DNA of 29,598 nt, from the IMG/VR virus record IMGVR_UViG_3300026276_000087, positions 1 to 29,598 of that record; one strand, 5' to 3'. The position numbers and the translations under genes were made by a program. This document shows, piece by piece, positions 4,371-22,959 of the stretch; within the stretch, counting starts at the first letter, position 1, and each line of letters starts with the position of its first letter. Under the pieces are notes generated by a model. The model had not been told where the DNA came from. It searched no databases and was given only the letters and a program-made list of their open reading frames with translations. Source of the stretch: a virus.

Positions 4371-6284
4371 TCAGGCCGCGAGGCGCTGGTAAAGCTCGAT
4401 GATGTCGGCGGCGTTGGCCGCGACCAGCGCCTCAGCTTCATCGGGACAGACGCTGTTTCCGATCAGCCGGACCTGGTCCGTTTTGTTGATTGGGCGCCAC
4501 TCTTCGGCGCCGGTCACCGGGTCGACGAACAGCCCGCGGTCGATGATGTAGTTCTCGTCAAAGCCTTGGGCGCGCTTCAGTTCAGGCGGTTGGAGCATGC
4601 GTAGCGTGATGTCCACCAGCACGTAACCGCCAACTATGACCATCTCGGCCGGATCTTTGAAGTGCTCCGGCAGGTGCTCGTGCATAAATGCGGCGCAGCG
4701 GCGGGCGCCCTCCATTTGCTCCGGCGTGAGAGTGTCCGGCACCTGCACGACCTCGACCAGCGCGACGCGGTCCTTTGTCGGTAGGGTGTGCATCGGCTCC
4801 GTGAGTGACACGCCGTCGGTATGGGCGCCGTAGTACTTCACCAGGTAGGCGCTCACCAGACGCTGATTGGCGCCTGACTGGCAGATGGTCGAGAGCGGCG
4901 AATCGGCGGCCCGGCCATCGCCGTCGTAGAAACCGCCATTCGCCTGCTCGAAGAACGCCGCCGATACCGCATGGTGCCCTGAGCTGGTGGCGACTACGCC
5001 AAGCGGGTTGGCTACGTCAGCTCCGACCGATCCTTTTCGCAACGTGACCATGTTCGCAGCTACAAGGGCTTGCTCGCCCCTGTTGGCGCCGGTCACCGTG
5101 CGGAAAGCATCATCCGGCGAATACCCGCTGCGCTCCCCGTGGTGCGTAAGGTGGGTCAGGTGGCAGGCCGCCAGCGCGAAGTGCCCACCCTTTACTTGAG
5201 CGACTTGCGTGCGCAGCGGCTCGACCGCGCTGAAGTTGCGCTGCGCAGATCCGTTTGCGCATTCGGTGAGAAAGGGGGTGGCTACCGGCTGCACCAAGGC
5301 GTGATGCGTTCCGCCGGCGCTGATGGTCGATAGCGATTCGTCGGAACCGTGGGTGCTGGTGTGTGCCGCCGAGGTTCCGCGCATCGGGACAATGAACGGC
5401 TTCATGCTGGTCAGCACATGGCGCCAGCAACCCTTGGCCACGCGACGCATCGTGTTCACCGCCATCGGCTTTTCGCGGAAGATCGTTCGTCCCAGGTTGC
5501 TCCAGTCGATGCACTCCGCGGCCGTGCGCCAAGGCTTCTGTTTTGCTGTCGGCTTCTTGTGATGTGTTGGCTCGGGCCAGACGATTGGCTTTCCGTCACT
5601 GCGGGCCACCAGATACAGCCTCTTACGGATGGTCGGGGCGCCGGAGTTCGATGCGATGCGCTCGCGCCATTCGACGTTGTAGCCAAGGCCTCGCACCAGG
5701 CATTCCACCGGTACGAATTCGCCGATAGCTTGCAGAATCTCCGGCATGTCCGAGTGATCCGACGGGAGCCCGGTACTGAGCGCAGCAATGAACGACTTGA
5801 AGGTACGCCCACGCTCAGCCTTGATCGGCTGACCCGCCTCGTCAATGGGGCCCCAGTCGCGGAACTCTTCAACATTCTCCAGGAACATCAGTCGTGGCCG
5901 GGTGGCATGGGCCCAACGAACAACCACCCAGGCCAAGCCGCGTACACCGCGGTCGCGGGGCGCGCCGCCCTTGGCCTTGCTGTGGTGGCGGCAGTCCGGC
6001 GAAGCCCAGAGGATGCCAACGGGCTGGCCACCGGTGGCCAGCACAGGATCGACTTCAAACACGTCCGCCACGTAGTGCGCTGTCTGAGGGTGATTCGCAC
6101 GGTGCACGGCCAGGGCAATCGGGTTGTGGTTAACAGCCACGTCCGGTTCCCGATACGCTCGAGCAATGGCATCGCTGGCACCGCCAGCGCCGGCGAACAG
6201 GTCCACCACCAGCTCTTTCTGGAATGGCAGGCCCATGCTTGGCTGGCCATGGATGAACTGGGGTTTCTTCTGTTGTGCGGACAT
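4371..6284 (-). CDS. DNA (cytosine-5) methyltransferase
   Basis: A 637-aa C5-cytosine methyltransferase. Motif I is DLFAGAGGASDA (residues 28-39, S-adenosylmethionine binding); motif IV is SPDCRHHSKAKGG with the nucleophile Cys98; motif VI is ENV (136-138); motif VIII is RKRLYLVARSD; and GNSV near the C-terminus is the motif X region. The catalytic loop reads SPDC, not the usual GPPC, as I recall for some phage enzymes. The central region between motifs VIII and IX is long and repeats short THxxLxT-like segments, fitting a large target-recognition region. GAGGA lies six bases before the ATG. It has no partner endonuclease here, so it probably protects phage DNA from host restriction. Confidence 0.93.
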   Translation of the reverse strand: MSAQQKKPQFIHGQPSMGLPFQKELVVDLFAGAGGASDAIARAYREPDVAVNHNPIALAVHRANHPQTAHYVADVFEVDPVLATGGQPVGILWASPDCRHHSKAKGGAPRDRGVRGLAWVVVRWAHATRPRLMFLENVEEFRDWGPIDEAGQPIKAERGRTFKSFIAALSTGLPSDHSDMPEILQAIGEFVPVECLVRGLGYNVEWRERIASNSGAPTIRKRLYLVARSDGKPIVWPEPTHHKKPTAKQKPWRTAAECIDWSNLGRTIFREKPMAVNTMRRVAKGCWRHVLTSMKPFIVPMRGTSAAHTSTHGSDESLSTISAGGTHHALVQPVATPFLTECANGSAQRNFSAVEPLRTQVAQVKGGHFALAACHLTHLTHHGERSGYSPDDAFRTVTGANRGEQALVAANMVTLRKGSVGADVANPLGVVATSSGHHAVSAAFFEQANGGFYDGDGRAADSPLSTICQSGANQRLVSAYLVKYYGAHTDGVSLTEPMHTLPTKDRVALVEVVQVPDTLTPEQMEGARRCAAFMHEHLPEHFKDPAEMVIVGGYVLVDITLRMLQPPELKRAQGFDENYIIDRGLFVDPVTGAEEWRPINKTDQVRLIGNSVCPDEAEALVAANAADIIELYQRLAA

Positions 6285-15571: not shown

Positions 15572-15613
15572 AATATAAGCGCACTTATTTTAATCGTCAA
15601 TAAGCATGCTTAT
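15572..15613 (-). promoter_or_regulatory. Leftward early promoter PL with two operators
   Basis: On the minus strand TTGACG (15600-15595) and TATATT (15577-15572) are separated by exactly 17 bases, a near-consensus sigma-70 promoter. Two operator copies of the form ATAAG-N4-CTTAT lie over it: 15575-15588 across the -10 box and 15600-15613 at the -35 edge, centres 25 bp apart. The same operator occurs at the cI/cro divide, so CI and Cro should repress this promoter. Confidence 0.85.
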
Positions 15614-15660: not shown

Positions 15661-15912
15661 TCACGCTTCGCAATACTCTCGCCACCCGATCCTTACCGCG
15701 CCGCTCTCAAGATGCTCAATGCGTATACCGCTGGTTTCTTCTATCTCTTGAAGTACTTGCTGCCATGCTTCAGCGGGCTCCGCTGCAAGCCTGGTCACGG
15801 TGACGGCTTGGATCTTCTGAACTCCTGGCGCTGCTATAAGGCGCTGGATGCGACGACCAACCAATTCATACGAATCTCGGGCGCGCGCTTTGGGTGGGGC
15901 GATTGTTACCAT
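15661..15912 (-). CDS. DUF1654 family protein
   Basis: An 83-aa protein starting MVTIAPPKARARDSYELVG. The ATG at 15912 has AAGGAG six bases upstream. The sequence fits DUF1654, a family largely found in Pseudomonas and its phages: SYELVGRRIQRLIAAP, VTRLAAEPAEAWQQVLQEIEETSGI and a C-terminal VRIGW. The family function is not established to my knowledge. A near-perfect LexA box upstream and its own terminator make this a separate SOS-type transcription unit between PL and the methyltransferase gene. Confidence 0.85.
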   Translation of the reverse strand: MVTIAPPKARARDSYELVGRRIQRLIAAPGVQKIQAVTVTRLAAEPAEAWQQVLQEIEETSGIRIEHLESGAVRIGWREYCEA

Positions 15913-15928
15913 CGGATGCTCCTTGCTA

Positions 15929-15948
15929 TACTGGATATACATACAGTA
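15929..15948 (-). promoter_or_regulatory. LexA (SOS) box
   Basis: TACTGGATATACATACAGTA matches the E. coli LexA consensus at 18 of 20 positions and keeps both CTG and CAG ends. It lies 16 bases upstream of the DUF1654 start codon. It predicts induction of that gene by DNA damage independent of, or together with, prophage induction. Confidence 0.8.
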
Positions 15949-16144
15949 TTGCTGCTGACATATTTTGGCAATAGACATTGGTCTACCTGGCTCGGGAGGA
16001 GAGAGCTCGCTTACATATCAGGCACAAAAAAAGTCCGTGCTTGGCGGGCTCTCTGTAACACTTGGGGTGCCAATCCTTCAGCGTGACCAGTTTGCAATCA
16101 AGTGGATTGCCAACTCAGTTGTGGCACGACGAACGGCAGAATTG

Positions 16145-16168
16145 AAAAGCCCGGCGCTGGGCCGGGCT
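16145..16168 (-). terminator. Intrinsic terminator after the adenine methyltransferase
   Basis: Read leftward: AGCCCGGC, loop CCAGC, GCCGGGCT, then TTTC. It stands a few bases beyond the methyltransferase stop codon. Confidence 0.7.
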
Positions 16169-16173
16169 GCGAG

Positions 16174-17052
16174 TCAGGCCGCTGCAGTAGCTCGAGGGAT
16201 TTTCGCATCAGGTACGGAGATACCTTTTTTGAAAAACATGACCTCATCGCCTACATATCGCGCTTGAGCGGTGTAGTGCAGTCCGTAAGTCAGCGCTTCG
16301 TTCTGGCTGTACATCTCACAGATCTCTGGTGCGTTGTCGTACGAGACCACCCACGACCGCTCGAAGTCGGGAGACTGCAGCAATTGAGCAATTTGCAGAT
16401 GGTCATCGTGCTTGTAGAAGTTTCGATACAGGCCGCGCCCTTTAACATAGTAGGGCGGGTCAAGGTATATCAGCGATTTTTCGGGCAGAAACTCTGCTGA
16501 GCGACCGAGCAAAATAAAGGCGTCCTCGCAATATACCGAAATACGATCTGCATTCAGCGCGATTCGTTCAAGCCTGGCAGCAATCATTTCCTTGCTGAAT
16601 CGGGCGTCGAGTTTGTATGGGCCAGTTTGCGCCTTCCCCCCGATGACCCCCCCTTTGAGGATGCCGGAACGGTTCGTGCGGTTAACAAAAAGCGTAGCAA
16701 AGCCGATCTCCGCAAGTGAGAGCTCAGGGTCTTGGCCAAGCATCACGGAACGCCAGTGATGCCACTGATCCATAGTGACTGGGGTGTCCCTTAGGAGCTT
16801 TAATATACCGTCCGGATCGGTTGTCGCGGCTGACCAGAAGGCAAATACGGCCGGATCAAGATCATTGATATGAATATGAGTCGCATGCCCGTCGAAAAGA
16901 AGCTCAAGAGCAACGCCGGCCCCGCCAGCAAACGGCTCAAGATAGTGGCCGTCCTCCAGGCCGTTAGCCCGCATAACCTCAGCAATGAAAGGCGCAAAGC
17001 GAGCCTTTCCGCCAGGGTAGCGTAGAGGGCTGTATAGCTTGTTGGAGTACAT
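16174..17052 (-). CDS. D12-class DNA N6-adenine methyltransferase
   Basis: A 292-aa Dam-like enzyme. Motif X/N-terminus SPLRYPGGKARF (8-19), motif I YLEPFAGGAGVALEL (37-51) and catalytic motif IV LDPPYY (197-202) are all intact. FVNRTNRSGILKGGVIGG is also typical of the family. It transfers methyl groups to adenine N6, commonly in GATC-like sites. GAAGAG is the ribosome-binding candidate. It follows the ATPase gene after 63 bases on the same strand, suggesting one transcript. It could protect phage DNA from the ATPase's nuclease partner or domain, or from host restriction. Confidence 0.92.
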   Translation of the reverse strand: MYSNKLYSPLRYPGGKARFAPFIAEVMRANGLEDGHYLEPFAGGAGVALELLFDGHATHIHINDLDPAVFAFWSAATTDPDGILKLLRDTPVTMDQWHHWRSVMLGQDPELSLAEIGFATLFVNRTNRSGILKGGVIGGKAQTGPYKLDARFSKEMIAARLERIALNADRISVYCEDAFILLGRSAEFLPEKSLIYLDPPYYVKGRGLYRNFYKHDDHLQIAQLLQSPDFERSWVVSYDNAPEICEMYSQNEALTYGLHYTAQARYVGDEVMFFKKGISVPDAKIPRATAAA

Positions 17053-17115
17053 TTTATCTCTTCCTTTGAGGCGCGCGAGCCTCAGTTTAGCGGCGCGCAG
17101 TATACTTGGCCAGCC

Positions 17116-18867
17116 CTACGCTGAAACCTTAGATTCCAGTTTTTTAGCCTCGTCAGGAGCTTCCAGAATCTTGAGCAATGCTGAATCTATACCGTGCCCA
17201 CTGATCATGGTGCTCCGCAAGCAGATCCTAAGACTCTCCTTGAAGTCATCGGCCAGCGTTGCATTGTGCTTTGCCCAAGCTCTATAAGGATTCTTCGCCG
17301 CGCCACCATTGACCATGCTCAAAAATGTAGAGTCTTTTGCGAAATTCTTAAAATGGCTCCGCAAGCGTTGATCCTCAGGCCCGGATTTTTTCCGGTAGCT
17401 GACTACAAGACTCTCCATATCAATTATGTCGTCGGCTGGATCAATTTCGAGTGTTTCAGATATTTTTTCACATAGGCCAATAAAAACTGGCTTACTGAAT
17501 CCTGAGGAGTTTTTCCAATAGGGGTCATCCGCAGGGAGATTATAAAGAAACTCAAAGATAAGCTGGTCTGGTGGCAGCGTGCCGGGTAGCTTTACGATGC
17601 TATCCATGCCTTTAATATTTTCCACGTCACCATCTAAGATGATTAGGCTTTTGCTGCAAAACTCAGGGATTTTGCGCTTTACGAGTTTTATATATTCTGA
17701 GCAGCCGAGAGCCACATCTTTAAGTGTGTTCGTTACTTTTTTAATCGTCCTGTCTGTGATTATTGCAGCATAAAGATCGTAGGCCTCTTTATCCTCAAAG
17801 TACAAATTGATTTGGGGCAAAAGATTGGCGTCTATTGCTACAGTTTGTACGTGGAGGTCGGCATATATTTGTGGCCACGTAACATTTTCAAATATTTGTA
17901 TTGGTCCATAACTATCGCTTAAGTAAATATTTTGATAATTGTCTTTATCGGCCAGACTAAGTTTCTGCAAGTCCTCAATCATTGTGGGGGAGTGGGATGT
18001 CATAATTACTTGTATATTAAGATCTTTGCACTCCTCTGTTAAAATCCTTATGAGCTGTTTTTGAGCTGCTGGAAACAGTCCAGCGTCTGCTTCATCAATT
18101 AGAAGCAGGCCGCCTCTGTATTCCGGATATTCTTCTTTTAGTTTTCGGAACGAGAATAAGGCTAATATTATTTGCCCTGCATTATCTTCCCCGGCGGATA
18201 CCGAGTCATGATCGTAGTTTGCCCCGTGAGCGGCGGCAGATTTTATGGTGCCTGTCGTGGCAGTTACCGATGTTGCTGATCTTTTGCTGAGTAACCTATT
18301 GCTCAATGCTACGAAATCTCTCCGATGCAATGATAGAAATTCTATATCATGTTCAGAATATTTTGATCGTTGGGAAATCGGCGTGAGACGCTTAAGGCTA
18401 AGATATATAACTGGATGTGTTGCATTGCGGCTTGTATTCTCACCATCAGATAGAGTATTGCCTCTGACAATGGGTCTAGGCTTGCTTCGATCTTTAGAAT
18501 CATACAGTTTTAAAATTAAATCGGCTGCTTCAGAAGTGTAGCCGTCATAAATTGATACGGAAGTGTCCATTGAGTCAGGCTTGTCAAATTTTTTAGATAA
18601 GCGAAAGTGCTCAGATACGCGAGATTCAAATTTTGAACCAGTCAGGGTTCGAAATAGAAGCGGCTCATCTTTAACGTAATCTTTCTCAAAGCTGAAAACT
18701 TGGGCCGCAATGCCAAGGATGGAAGATTTTGAAGTTCCGTTTTTTCCGCAGAGCAGCGTGATTCGTTTTCCGAGCGGGACAGTTAAGTCTTTCAATCCTC
18801 GGAAGTGAGTTATATTTATTTTATTTACATGCGTTATGTCGGTTTTTATGTTTTTCTTCTGGCTCAA
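17116..18867 (-). CDS. SMC/OLD-like ATPase with possible TOPRIM-like C-terminus
   Basis: A 583-aa protein starting at TTG (18867), with GGGAGG seven bases upstream and no better ATG. The ATPase half is complete: ITHFRGLKDLTV at the start, Walker A GKNGTSKSS (41-49), signature SAGED (224-228), Walker B GGLLLIDEADAGLFP (252-266) and H-switch MTSHSP (289-294). Downstream, INLYFEDKEAYDLY (about 353-366) and SLIILDGDVEN (about 407-417) have the acidic pattern of TOPRIM nucleases, though degenerate. The DNA is AT-richer than the core phage genes. OLD-type proteins block other phages. PARIS-like or plain AAA defence ATPases are alternatives. Confidence 0.85.
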   Translation of the reverse strand: MSQKKNIKTDITHVNKINITHFRGLKDLTVPLGKRITLLCGKNGTSKSSILGIAAQVFSFEKDYVKDEPLLFRTLTGSKFESRVSEHFRLSKKFDKPDSMDTSVSIYDGYTSEAADLILKLYDSKDRSKPRPIVRGNTLSDGENTSRNATHPVIYLSLKRLTPISQRSKYSEHDIEFLSLHRRDFVALSNRLLSKRSATSVTATTGTIKSAAAHGANYDHDSVSAGEDNAGQIILALFSFRKLKEEYPEYRGGLLLIDEADAGLFPAAQKQLIRILTEECKDLNIQVIMTSHSPTMIEDLQKLSLADKDNYQNIYLSDSYGPIQIFENVTWPQIYADLHVQTVAIDANLLPQINLYFEDKEAYDLYAAIITDRTIKKVTNTLKDVALGCSEYIKLVKRKIPEFCSKSLIILDGDVENIKGMDSIVKLPGTLPPDQLIFEFLYNLPADDPYWKNSSGFSKPVFIGLCEKISETLEIDPADDIIDMESLVVSYRKKSGPEDQRLRSHFKNFAKDSTFLSMVNGGAAKNPYRAWAKHNATLADDFKESLRICLRSTMISGHGIDSALLKILEAPDEAKKLESKVSA

Positions 18868-19263
18868 TTGCTTGCCTCCCTGCGTTTGTTTGTGAACTTC
18901 AGGCTAGAGTTTTTTGATTCGGCTACGAGTTGCCGGTAAAGTCTTTCTCAGCTTCCCTCACAACCTTCCCCGCCTTCACCTCATCCGAGCGTGCCATAGT
19001 AATGGCTTAGCGCTATCAGCTCAAACACAGTCACGAAAACGCAGAGCACAATGAAGCCATGGCTGAAGACCCGCTTGCGGCTGGATGAGCCTCGCCCAGC
19101 CAGTTCGGAACTGAACCGTCGGAAATCAGTAAGAGAAGCGCCAGCAAAGCATAGGTCCATGCCTTGCTCCATAAACTCTGGTCTCGCCATTGAGTTATCC
19201 CTGTTCTTCCATATCCTGTATTCGGCAGATCACCACCTCACTTGCATGACCCGGTGATCGCGC
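18868..19263. other. Poorly defined stretch between the ATPase gene and the 19264 gene
   Basis: About 400 bases with only one weak ORF (18981-19190, listed separately). The other minus frame encodes a hydrophobic segment (YALLALLLLISD) without a start codon, so the region may hold a decayed or frameshifted two-pass membrane gene. I see no terminator or operator here. Confidence 0.4.
18981..19190 (-). CDS. Possible small membrane protein
   Basis: A 69-aa reading frame, MARPEFMEQGMDLCFAG..., ending in a convincing transmembrane helix (FIVLCVFVTVFELIAL). The ribosome-binding site (AGGGAT, ten bases upstream) is weak. The overlapping frame encodes a different hydrophobic helix, raising the chance of a frameshift in an originally longer membrane protein. 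It is placed between cI and the ATPase on the lysogen-expressed strand. Confidence 0.42.
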   Translation of the reverse strand: MARPEFMEQGMDLCFAGASLTDFRRFSSELAGRGSSSRKRVFSHGFIVLCVFVTVFELIALSHYYGTLG

Positions 19264-19678: not shown

Positions 19679-20338
19679 TCAATAAAACTTCTGCAGCGCC
19701 TGCACCACGACGCCCACGATTCGGCAGTTCTCGTCCACTGCCTCGATCGGGTAGCTCAGGTTCAATGGTTTCAGGAACAGCCGGCCGCCGTCGCTTACCA
19801 GCTTTTTGAACGTCGCCTCATTGCTATCTGGGAGCTTGGCCACGACCAGCTTACCTGGAGCAACCTCAGCCTCAGTATCGACCAGAATCAGCGTGCCCTC
19901 GGTGATGCTTTGGCCGGCTGGCGCTGTCATCGAGTCGCCTTTGACTGTCAGCCAGAATGCTGGGCCTTTGGAGTCGTACTCCGAAAACTCGTATCGATCC
20001 GAAATGCCGGCAGGGTAGGGCTCCACAGCTTCAGCCCAGGATCCCGCAGAAACCCAGCTGATTACCGGATAGCGGTAGGACGTGGCTGGCTGGCGGGCCT
20101 CCCCTACGTTTGAGTCGTTGACGCTCGCGCCTGTCATTGGGCCGGTGTTCTCGGACAGCCAAATAGCATTCACCCCGCACACGTGCGCGATCTTAGGCAG
20201 ATGCGCGCTCTGGAGGTTCTTTCCTGTTTCCAGCTGCGAAATCACTGGTTGCTCAACCCCCACCTTCAGGGCGAGCGCTTTCTGAGTCAGTTTGGCGTGA
20301 TTTCGTGCGGATTTGATTCGTTCGGCGAGTGTGCTCAT
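19679..20338 (-). CDS. cI: CI-type phage repressor with S24 self-cleavage domain
   Basis: A 219-aa LexA/CI repressor. The start at 20338 (MSTLAERIKSARN) is preferred over upstream starts because the HTH family begins so. The DNA-binding HTH is LTQKALALKVGVEQPVISQLETGK (17-40). The C-terminal peptidase domain has the cleavage site Ala98-Gly99 in WVSAGSW, the nucleophile Ser136 in KGDSM and a Lys in TFKKL (178-179). RecA-stimulated self-cleavage should induce the prophage. The PRM -10 box ends about ten bases before the ATG, so the mRNA may be nearly leaderless, as in lambda. It is divergent from the cro-like gene across the operators at 20351-20411. Confidence 0.94.
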   Translation of the reverse strand: MSTLAERIKSARNHAKLTQKALALKVGVEQPVISQLETGKNLQSAHLPKIAHVCGVNAIWLSENTGPMTGASVNDSNVGEARQPATSYRYPVISWVSAGSWAEAVEPYPAGISDRYEFSEYDSKGPAFWLTVKGDSMTAPAGQSITEGTLILVDTEAEVAPGKLVVAKLPDSNEATFKKLVSDGGRLFLKPLNLSYPIEAVDENCRIVGVVVQALQKFY

Positions 20339-20347
20339 CCGCTGGAA

Positions 20348-20411
20348 TTTATAAGTTCCCTTATCGGCTTGCAAATAAGTGTCCTTCTACTTAGGATATA
20401 AGCAGGCTTAT
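20348..20411. promoter_or_regulatory. Right operator region with three operators, PR and PRM
   Basis: Three copies of ATAAG-N4-CTTAT lie at 20351-20364, 20375-20388 (last half degenerate, CTTCT) and 20398-20411, with centres 24 and 23 bp apart. PR reads TTGCAA (20369-20374), 17 bases, TAGGAT (20392-20397). PRM reads leftward with -10 TATAAA (20353-20348) and a weak -35. Operator 1 covers the PRM -10 box and operators 2 and 3 cover PR, the lambda OR plan. Confidence 0.85.
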
Positions 20412-21456: not shown

Positions 21457-22302
21457 ATGCAGATTTCAAGCGCTTCTGTAAATACCCAGACCAATGTCGC
21501 GACACGTTTTGTTAATTCGGAAAACGTGTCGCGTACCGAAATCGTCAGCCTTGTAGATGGCGAGGCGGTGACAACCACTCTCGCCATTGCTGCAGGGTGC
21601 GAAGTGGATCACGCCAGCGTTATCAAGCTGGCCCGTACCTACCAGTCCGATCTTCAAGAGTTCGGACTTCTGGATTTCAAATCCGAAAGTACAGGGGGGC
21701 GCCCCACAGAGTTCGTTCTCCTCAACGAACAGCAGTCGACGCTGATCCTGACTTATATGCGCAACAGCCCGATTGTTCGCGAATTCAAGAAACGCCTCGT
21801 TAAAGACTTCTGGCGCCTGATTCACGCAAAGCCAACCTTCGACTACGCCGCCGCCCTGAGCGATCCGCGCACCTTACTGGCCTTACTCACGGACAACGTG
21901 AAGAAGGTCGTCGCCCTGGAAGCGGACAACACCGAGCTTTCCAATGAAAACCTGATGCTCGAGCAGAAGGTCGCCGCCGACGCGCCGAAGACAGCTTTCT
22001 TCGACGCGGTGACCGTCACCCACGAAACCTACTCGGTGGCCGAAGCCGCAAAGCTGATCGGCACCGGCCAGAACCGCCTGATGGCGTTCCTGCGTCAGCG
22101 CCGCTGGGTCACCCTTCGCAAAAACGAACCGATGCAGGGCCCGATTGAGTCCGGCTACCTCACTGCGAAGCTCAGCACCTTCGAGCATCCAGAGAATGGC
22201 AAGACCACCGTGTCCACTCCACGAGTAACCGGTAAGGGGCTGACGAAGCTTCAGGCTCTCTGGGCGCGCCGTGACGCCGATCTTCTCGGAGGTCCTCTGT
22301 GA
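21457..22302 (+). CDS. Rha/KilAC-type phage antirepressor
   Basis: A 281-aa two-domain protein. The N-terminal Rha domain shows DHASVIKLARTYQSDLQEFGLLDFKSESTGGRPTEFVLLNEQQSTLILTYMRNSPIVREFKKRLVKDFW (about 50-125). The C-terminal KilAC/ANT domain shows YSVAEAAKLIGTGQNRLMAFLRQRRWV and a final VTGKGLTKLQALW. Such proteins relieve repression or otherwise regulate lysogeny. GAGGTG precedes the ATG. A perfect 13-bp inverted repeat lies inside codons 14-26. Confidence 0.9.
   Translation: MQISSASVNTQTNVATRFVNSENVSRTEIVSLVDGEAVTTTLAIAAGCEVDHASVIKLARTYQSDLQEFGLLDFKSESTGGRPTEFVLLNEQQSTLILTYMRNSPIVREFKKRLVKDFWRLIHAKPTFDYAAALSDPRTLLALLTDNVKKVVALEADNTELSNENLMLEQKVAADAPKTAFFDAVTVTHETYSVAEAAKLIGTGQNRLMAFLRQRRWVTLRKNEPMQGPIESGYLTAKLSTFEHPENGKTTVSTPRVTGKGLTKLQALWARRDADLLGGPL
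21498..21533. repeat. CGCGACAC inverted repeat inside the antirepressor gene
   Basis: Arms 21498-21510 (CGCGACACGTTTT) and 21521-21533 are perfect reverse complements with a 10-base loop. The same CGCGACAC core recurs as an inverted repeat at 28193-28228. It could be an operator or a hairpin in the mRNA; see findings. Confidence 0.85.
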
Positions 22303-22370
22303 TCGACACTGAACACCTTCGTGCTGTCGAGAGTTACGACACGGCCAACACCACTCTTATGAGCGCATGA
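22299..22370 (+). CDS. 23-codon coupling ORF
   Basis: A GTG start overlaps the antirepressor stop (GTGA) and has an excellent ribosome-binding site, GGAGG six bases upstream. It encodes MIDTEHLRAVESYDTANTTL then MSA. It stops one base before the ATG of the next gene, which has no ribosome-binding site of its own, so it probably delivers ribosomes to that gene. Confidence 0.6.
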   Translation: MIDTEHLRAVESYDTANTTLMSA

Positions 22371-22371
22371 C

Positions 22372-22959
22372 ATGCAATACACCGTCACGATCAATCAGGT
22401 GAAGGCGCTGGAGTGGGGGCTCAATTCTCAGCAGGCCCTGCTGTTTGCCTTCGTCTACGAGAGCCCGAGCTGGGCCAATCCAATCAAGACGGATACCGGG
22501 ATTTACTTTGCGCTGAGCAAGGCCAAGATTGTTGATGAACTGCCGCTGCTCACGGACAAGCCGGATACCGCATATCGCCTGCTGAAGGCGTTGCGTGACG
22601 CCGGCCTTATCGAGCTACACGCGGAAGGGGTTCGCCTCACGGACAAAGGGCGTGAATGGAACCCGAACCGCATGGGGCACTTCACTATCCATCAGCCAGC
22701 CGTACAGGCTCCGCGGCGCAGGTCAAAAAAGTCGCCCATCCCTTCAGGTTTGCGCGCCCAGGTGTTTGCTCGCGATGGCCATGCATGCCTGCGTTGCAGC
22801 TGCTCGGAGCCGTTGCGCTTGAGAGCCGACCACATCATTCCCGAGAGCAAAGGGGGCGAGGCGTCGATGGCAAACCTTCAAACCCTCTGCATGTCCTGCA
22901 ATAGCTGGAAAGGCGTGCAGACGATTGATTTTCGCGCCTTCGCCGGAGGTGCAGCATGA
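22372..22959 (+). CDS. Winged-helix protein with C-terminal HNH nuclease domain
   Basis: A 195-aa fusion. Residues 1-105 look like a replication or regulatory winged helix (QALLFAFVYESPSW, KAKIVDELPLLTDKPDTAYRLLKALRDAGLIELHAEGVRLTDKG). Residues 125-180 are an HNH domain: CLRC (139-142), ADHIIPESKGG with Asp153-His154, and CMSCN (173-177). It lacks a Shine-Dalgarno sequence and is coupled to the ORF before it. It may nick DNA at replication or be a specialised nuclease. Stop overlaps the next start (ATGA). Confidence 0.85.
   Translation: MQYTVTINQVKALEWGLNSQQALLFAFVYESPSWANPIKTDTGIYFALSKAKIVDELPLLTDKPDTAYRLLKALRDAGLIELHAEGVRLTDKGREWNPNRMGHFTIHQPAVQAPRRRSKKSPIPSGLRAQVFARDGHACLRCSCSEPLRLRADHIIPESKGGEASMANLQTLCMSCNSWKGVQTIDFRAFAGGAA

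Follow-up and report, generated by a model that had tools for sequence, protein, structure and literature searches.

The window, i.e. the whole stretch of 29,598 nucleotides analysed here, is a Pseudomonas-type prophage that carries an adenine methyltransferase and a nuclease-like ATPase near its repressor gene. The balance of the sequence evidence tips slightly toward reading this pair as a putative prophage restriction-like module, in which a constant self-mark is combined with interchangeable TOPRIM nucleases. Direct support comes from the intact genes, their position, their deep linkage, the invariant acidic residues and TOPRIM-like topology of the ATPase, and its repeated replacement by other lineages or by PD-Lambda-5_A. 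The component families are known; the combination of ATPase and methyltransferase appears to be the new part.

Gene Content and Position of the Pair

The pair comprises the following features:

16174..17052, minus strand: D12-class N6-adenine DNA methyltransferase of the PD-Lambda-5_B family; 292 aa, ATG start, AGGAAG upstream
17053..17115, minus strand: 63-base spacer carrying the methyltransferase ribosome-binding site
17116..18867, minus strand: OLD-like ABC ATPase with a C-terminal TOPRIM-like domain; 583 aa, TTG start, GGGAGG upstream

Both open reading frames are uninterrupted and complete at these coordinates, in agreement with the first-pass annotation, which had described a complete ATPase 63 bases from an intact D12 methyltransferase. 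The ATPase matches AAA_15 (5.9e-20), AAA_21 and, over its full length, PHROG 3940 (5e-159), while its profile matches the OLD structure 6p74 at 1.6e-12. Its motifs include Walker A (G41-N43-G44-K47-S48), Walker B (D258-E259) and the switch H292. The methyltransferase matches MethyltransfD12 (1.2e-15), contains the motifs PLRYPGGK and DPPY, and is covered from residue 5 to 285 by the PADLOC profile PD-Lambda-5_B (PDLC04018) with an E value of 3.4e-110. Judged by these profile scores, the predicted family assignments of both genes are far above chance. The GC content amounts to 42% for the ATPase, 54% for the methyltransferase and 56% for the whole window; the low value of the ATPase is as would be expected for a newly acquired cassette. 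No separate specificity domain was recognised in the ATPase, which counts against a restriction-like function.

Around the pair, the following elements were located:

15572-15600, minus strand: PL-like promoter-like site, TTGACG-17-TATATT, covered by the left operator pair
15575..15613, no strand: left operator pair (ATAAGCGCACTTAT, ATAAGCATGCTTAT), overlapping the PL-like promoter
16148..16168, minus strand: terminator-like hairpin of 8 pairs, 7 of them GC, then TTTTC, just beyond the methyltransferase stop; its fold z is only -1.2
18981..19190, minus strand: 69-aa open reading frame (ORF69), PHROG 29612, between cI and the ATPase
19679..20338, minus strand: cI-type repressor (HTH_3 and Peptidase_S24), upstream of the pair on the same strand
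20351..20411, no strand: right operator triplet with sites at 20351, 20375 and 20398, between cI and the rightward genes

The operators are defined by the palindrome ATAAGNNNNCTTAT. In the whole 29.6 kb, perfect copies of it are confined to 15575, 15600, 20351 and 20398, while the copy at 20375 carries one mismatch. The PL-like promoter points left and precedes the RecT and RecE genes, which run leftward as well. A placement of the pair on the cI strand between PL and cI had been noted previously, and both the operator palindromes and the PL-like promoter agree with it. Lying between these predicted operators on the cI strand, the ATPase and the methyltransferase occupy the lambda rex position, and by analogy the pair may be expressed in lysogeny. 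RexAB of Pseudomonas putida prophages is the subject of a 2026 paper, which mentions neither an ATPase nor a methyltransferase (PMC12894663). Apart from a DUF1654 gene (15661-15978, minus strand), no further gene was seen in the interval from the methyltransferase terminator to the left operators.

The C-Terminal Domain of the ATPase

Nucleases of the OLD type, with ATPase and TOPRIM parts, occur widely in defence, and their arrangement can be traced in the window ATPase, which has both the OLD-type N-terminal ABC ATPase and the TOPRIM acids E and DxD. In an alignment of 109 relatives, E358, D359, D412 and D414 are the sole invariant residues of the C-terminal domain. The earlier description of these acidic motifs as degenerate is contradicted by this invariance, and a degenerate TOPRIM domain was accordingly rejected.

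A search with the whole model using VIA-align listed almost only matches to the ATPase head; because the head dominated in this way, a separate model of the C-terminus was built and used for the search. The isolated domain was modelled with a pLDDT of 94.3 and shows the order strand (with E358 at its end), helices, strand, helices, strand (with D412-x-D414 at its end), strand. The order beta1(E)-alpha-beta2-alpha-beta3(DxD) is the TOPRIM arrangement. The best PDB matches of the model include the C-terminal OLD structures 6njx, 6njw and 6nk8, with solved OLD TOPRIM domains ranking first, as well as PARIS AriB and the retron Eco2 protein. A structural check of the C-terminus that the first-pass annotation had proposed yielded TOPRIM topology and invariant acids together with weak fold scores (Foldseek E values from 0.08 with a probability of 0.87; Z 4.8-5.7, with AriB at 5.5). 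The TOPRIM assignment is probable on the basis of the model, while the weakness of the scores would argue against a restriction-like function.

With the full-length ATPase model, Foldseek ranked GajA first (8u7i, 4.9e-12), and the Thermus scotoductus OLD protein was also among the top matches. When the C-terminal half alone was compared with PADLOC at the sequence level, only HEC-04 matched (3.7e-4). A homologue of HEC-04, IbfA, is an ATPase-TOPRIM protein with experimentally established anti-phage activity (PMC12111858).

Linkage to the Methyltransferase

Starting from relatives of the ATPase, and considering only loci with at least 2.5 kb of flank on both sides, the methyltransferase was found next to the ATPase in 61 of 64 loci from genomes and in 65 of 66 from viral contigs. 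A scan anchored on the methyltransferase found all 42 close relatives partnered, 41 with an OLD-like ATPase and one with PD-Lambda-5_A; strong-scoring members of the family lacked a partner only where the contig ended or the copy was truncated. The two genes being mere chance neighbours, i.e. two unrelated phage genes, is rejected by these counts, and the co-occurrence in other prophages that had been suggested as a check proved to be strongly conserved. Gene order and strand vary: the methyltransferase lies mostly downstream of the ATPase, while other lineages have it upstream or in a convergent or divergent arrangement.

The pair is carried by 85 of 5,426 E. coli genomes, each with a match that spans 80% or more of the two-gene query. 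It also occurs in Acinetobacter, in Citrobacter phage phiNP, in Streptococcus phages and in Vibrio phage ValB1MD-2, as well as on plasmids of Psychrobacter and Nicoliella. Among 249 Pseudomonas genomes, the methyltransferase family was found in three, twice beside a close ATPase and once with PD-Lambda-5_A, numbers that are too small for statistics; the many weaker PHROG 3940 matches in these genomes are other ATPases.

Some ATPases lack a D12 methyltransferase. In locus L064 (4031-6542), a relative is divergent to a C5-cytosine DNA methylase that takes the place of the D12 enzyme, and in L095 (3479-8713) a relative lies between HsdM and an HsdS-like gene within a type I restriction locus. Both neighbourhoods were counted for the restriction-like reading. 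No methyltransferase was seen near the intact ATPases of L071, L096 and L157 despite adequate flank, and these three loci speak against it. The relative in L096 (4998-8952) is found inside a polysaccharide locus, where a 598-aa protein and a ThsB-like TIR gene are encoded in its vicinity.

Decayed copies were counted as well. The ATPase is broken and the methyltransferase intact in six loci, the reverse was found in none, and both genes are broken in two. This would point toward a restriction-like function, but the counts are too few: the asymmetry of six versus zero is not significant (an estimated ~0.09 under a length-proportional null, the ATPase gene being the longer one), and some of the breaks may be sequencing errors.

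Exchange of the ATPase and Proposed Mechanism

Methyltransferases 85-94% identical to that of the window are accompanied by quite different ATPases. In L314, L332 and L339 these are 80-87% identical to the window ATPase, whereas in L316-L324 and L353 the identity is 24-29%. The latter fall into two lineages, about 24% identical to each other, so that three ATPase lineages with at most 31% identity between them occur beside this near-constant methyltransferase. The boundaries of the exchange are visible in the DNA. Between L316 and the window, cI, ORF69 and the methyltransferase align at 73-87%, while the ATPase DNA (17117 to 18977) remains unaligned, with ORF69 outside the swapped segment. In L317, L319 and L321, homology to the window stops at 17115-17118, which corresponds to the ATPase stop codon, and in some ATPase-swapped relatives it stops at 17052-17054. 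All swapped ATPases that were checked retain the Walker motifs and the E-D...D-x-D acids.

That three ATPase lineages share one near-constant methyltransferase suggests that methyltransferase and effectors are linked via a mark on the DNA and not via a dedicated protein contact, and the exchange favours protection via such a mark. In the mechanism that we slightly prefer, the module would be expressed alongside the repressor in lysogeny, and the D12 methyltransferase would methylate adenine in a short motif on host and prophage DNA. The marked host would then tolerate the OLD-like ATPase, while its TOPRIM-like nuclease domain may cut incoming unmarked DNA. The lysogen could thereby exclude competing phages. 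A two-gene restriction-like system had been proposed at the outset; linkage, TOPRIM topology and acids, and ATPase exchange now speak for it, while the self-marking and attacking roles are putative.

The main rival, which we consider rather unlikely, is a guard or abortive infection mode. Here, the ATPase would be silent as long as the methyltransferase or its mark is intact; a phage that blocks methylation, for instance via a DNA mimic or SAM lyase, or another cue would trigger the TOPRIM nuclease to hit tRNA or any DNA, and the cell would die. PARIS AriA/AriB respond to Ocr by a guard-type mode. The ABC-ATPase part of the window protein matches AriA (3.7e-20), PtuA and other trigger ATPases, and AriB is among the best TOPRIM matches of its C-terminus (see above). 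In PARIS, ATPase and TOPRIM are separate proteins without a methyltransferase, whereas the TOPRIM-like domain of the window is part of the ATPase chain. A position between HsdM and HsdS, as in L095, is typical of a guard, and the ATPases are far more diverged than the methyltransferase, as trigger sensors would be. Moreover, the discoverers of PD-lambda-5, which shares the methyltransferase family, labelled that system RM+Abi (PMC9519451). On the other hand, the pair comes without a separate restriction enzyme to guard, and ATPases of 24-29% identity common to one near-constant methyltransferase are hard to square with direct protein guarding.

Relation to PD-Lambda-5 and Other Known Systems

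PD-lambda-5 is among the closest known systems. It resembles the pair in that it is prophage-borne and consists of two adjacent genes, one of the PD-Lambda-5_B family. Yet, the window pair lacks PD-Lambda-5_A and has an OLD-like ATPase in its place: neither PDLC04017 in the window nor a 12-sequence PD-Lambda-5_A profile near its methyltransferase gave a match. Canonical PD-lambda-5 was rejected on this basis, the A component being absent. While PD-lambda-5 is experimentally anti-phage (Vassallo et al. 2022, PMC9519451), such activity of the window pair is predicted. The wording of the PD-lambda-5 authors, RM+Abi and not plain RM, counts against a restriction-like reading of the pair. PD-lambda-5 was cloned in a host without the mrr region (PMC9519451), which fits an active adenine methylase in the PD-Lambda-5_B family.

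Elsewhere in the methyltransferase family, members without the ATPase carry PD-Lambda-5_A instead, and composite loci combine ATPase, PD-Lambda-5_A and methyltransferase. An approximate FastTree phylogeny built from 152 methyltransferases requires the partner to have switched between ATPase and PD-Lambda-5_A at least 17 times, 10 of them forced by well-supported branches. Conceivably, the methyltransferase is a plug-in platform, an idea that we regard as plausible rather than probable: one near-constant enzyme would license interchangeable and highly diverged effectors (at least three ATPase lineages, elsewhere PD-Lambda-5_A) that all read the absence of the mark. If so, phages could swap the attacking enzyme and leave the self mark unchanged. 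The same data also allow for a variant of PD-lambda-5, in which the OLD-like ATPase takes the effector role of PD-Lambda-5_A and the mechanism is that of PD-lambda-5, neither plain restriction-modification nor guard. The shared methyltransferase family, the mutual replacement of the partners, the number of partner switches on the tree and the composite loci (e.g. L041, L051, L073, L074 and L203) agree with this. We nevertheless consider it improbable: PD-Lambda-5_A gave neither a significant Pfam assignment nor any match to ATPases or TOPRIM domains, so that its equivalence in role is assumed, and the composites suggest that ATPase and PD-Lambda-5_A are not simply redundant. Very improbable is a role outside defence, in which the methyltransferase would regulate phage genes or shield phage DNA against enzymes of the host, and the ATPase would be an accessory in DNA repair or partition. 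Phages do commonly carry Dam-like methyltransferases that lack such a partner, but here strong family members are without one only at a contig edge or when truncated, the partner is repeatedly exchanged, and the pair is found at positions expected to be expressed in lysogeny and also on plasmids.

The three-gene loci (L041, L051, L068, L073, L074, L079, L086 and L203) stem from bacteria of several phyla and from viral contigs. In L075, L078, L080 and L084, a gene of 207-417 aa lies between ATPase and methyltransferase. It opens with an NPR-type motif which, judged by eye, is similar to ParB/sulfiredoxin domains, and the L078 gene is only weakly PD-Lambda-5_A-like.

Returning to the putative restriction-like module, its ATPase shares with OLD nucleases such as P2 Old and T. 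scotoductus OLD a phage-borne gene and the domain order, in which an ABC ATPase precedes a C-terminal TOPRIM-like domain whose acids are invariant. However, class 1 OLD proteins act as a single gene, whereas the window ATPase is constantly linked to an adenine methyltransferase. GajA of Gabija, a class 2 OLD protein, is its best full-length Foldseek match; the UvrD-like GajB is absent among the neighbours scanned (methyltransferase, DUF1654, PHROG 2600, PHROG 29612, an open reading frame without match and the repressor). HEC-04 and IbfA are likewise single-chain ATPase-TOPRIM anti-phage proteins, but IbfA reduced phage plating when cloned without a methyltransferase. Type II restriction-modification systems similarly link an adenine methyltransferase tightly to a nuclease, a putative one in the window, where in contrast the candidate is an OLD-type ATPase that is exchanged while the methyltransferase stays. 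The pair belongs neither to canonical PD-lambda-5 nor to any of the OLD classes (single gene, Gabija, retron) given in the accessible part of a review (PMC10568477). Targeted literature searches revealed no description of the pair, and a 2020 survey of ABC-ATPase conflict systems (doi 10.1093/nar/gkaa726) may list such operons.

The methyltransferase half is a module that PD-lambda-5 shares with the present pair, and detection tools that require both PD-lambda-5 halves therefore miss the ATPase-methyltransferase system. The constant tie to an adenine methyltransferase, together with a natural series of partner exchanges, makes self-marking for the class of OLD-type nucleases directly testable.

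Further Genes of the Window

A larger, second DNA methyltransferase (4371-6284, minus strand; PHROG 116, 2.9e-89) is located in the leftward early region. On the plus strand, 21457-22959 encodes a Rha/KilAC antirepressor followed by an HNH endonuclease. The N-terminal half of the latter matches the start of PHROG 11527, which continues in the replication O-like gene at 22956, possibly reflecting an HNH insertion.
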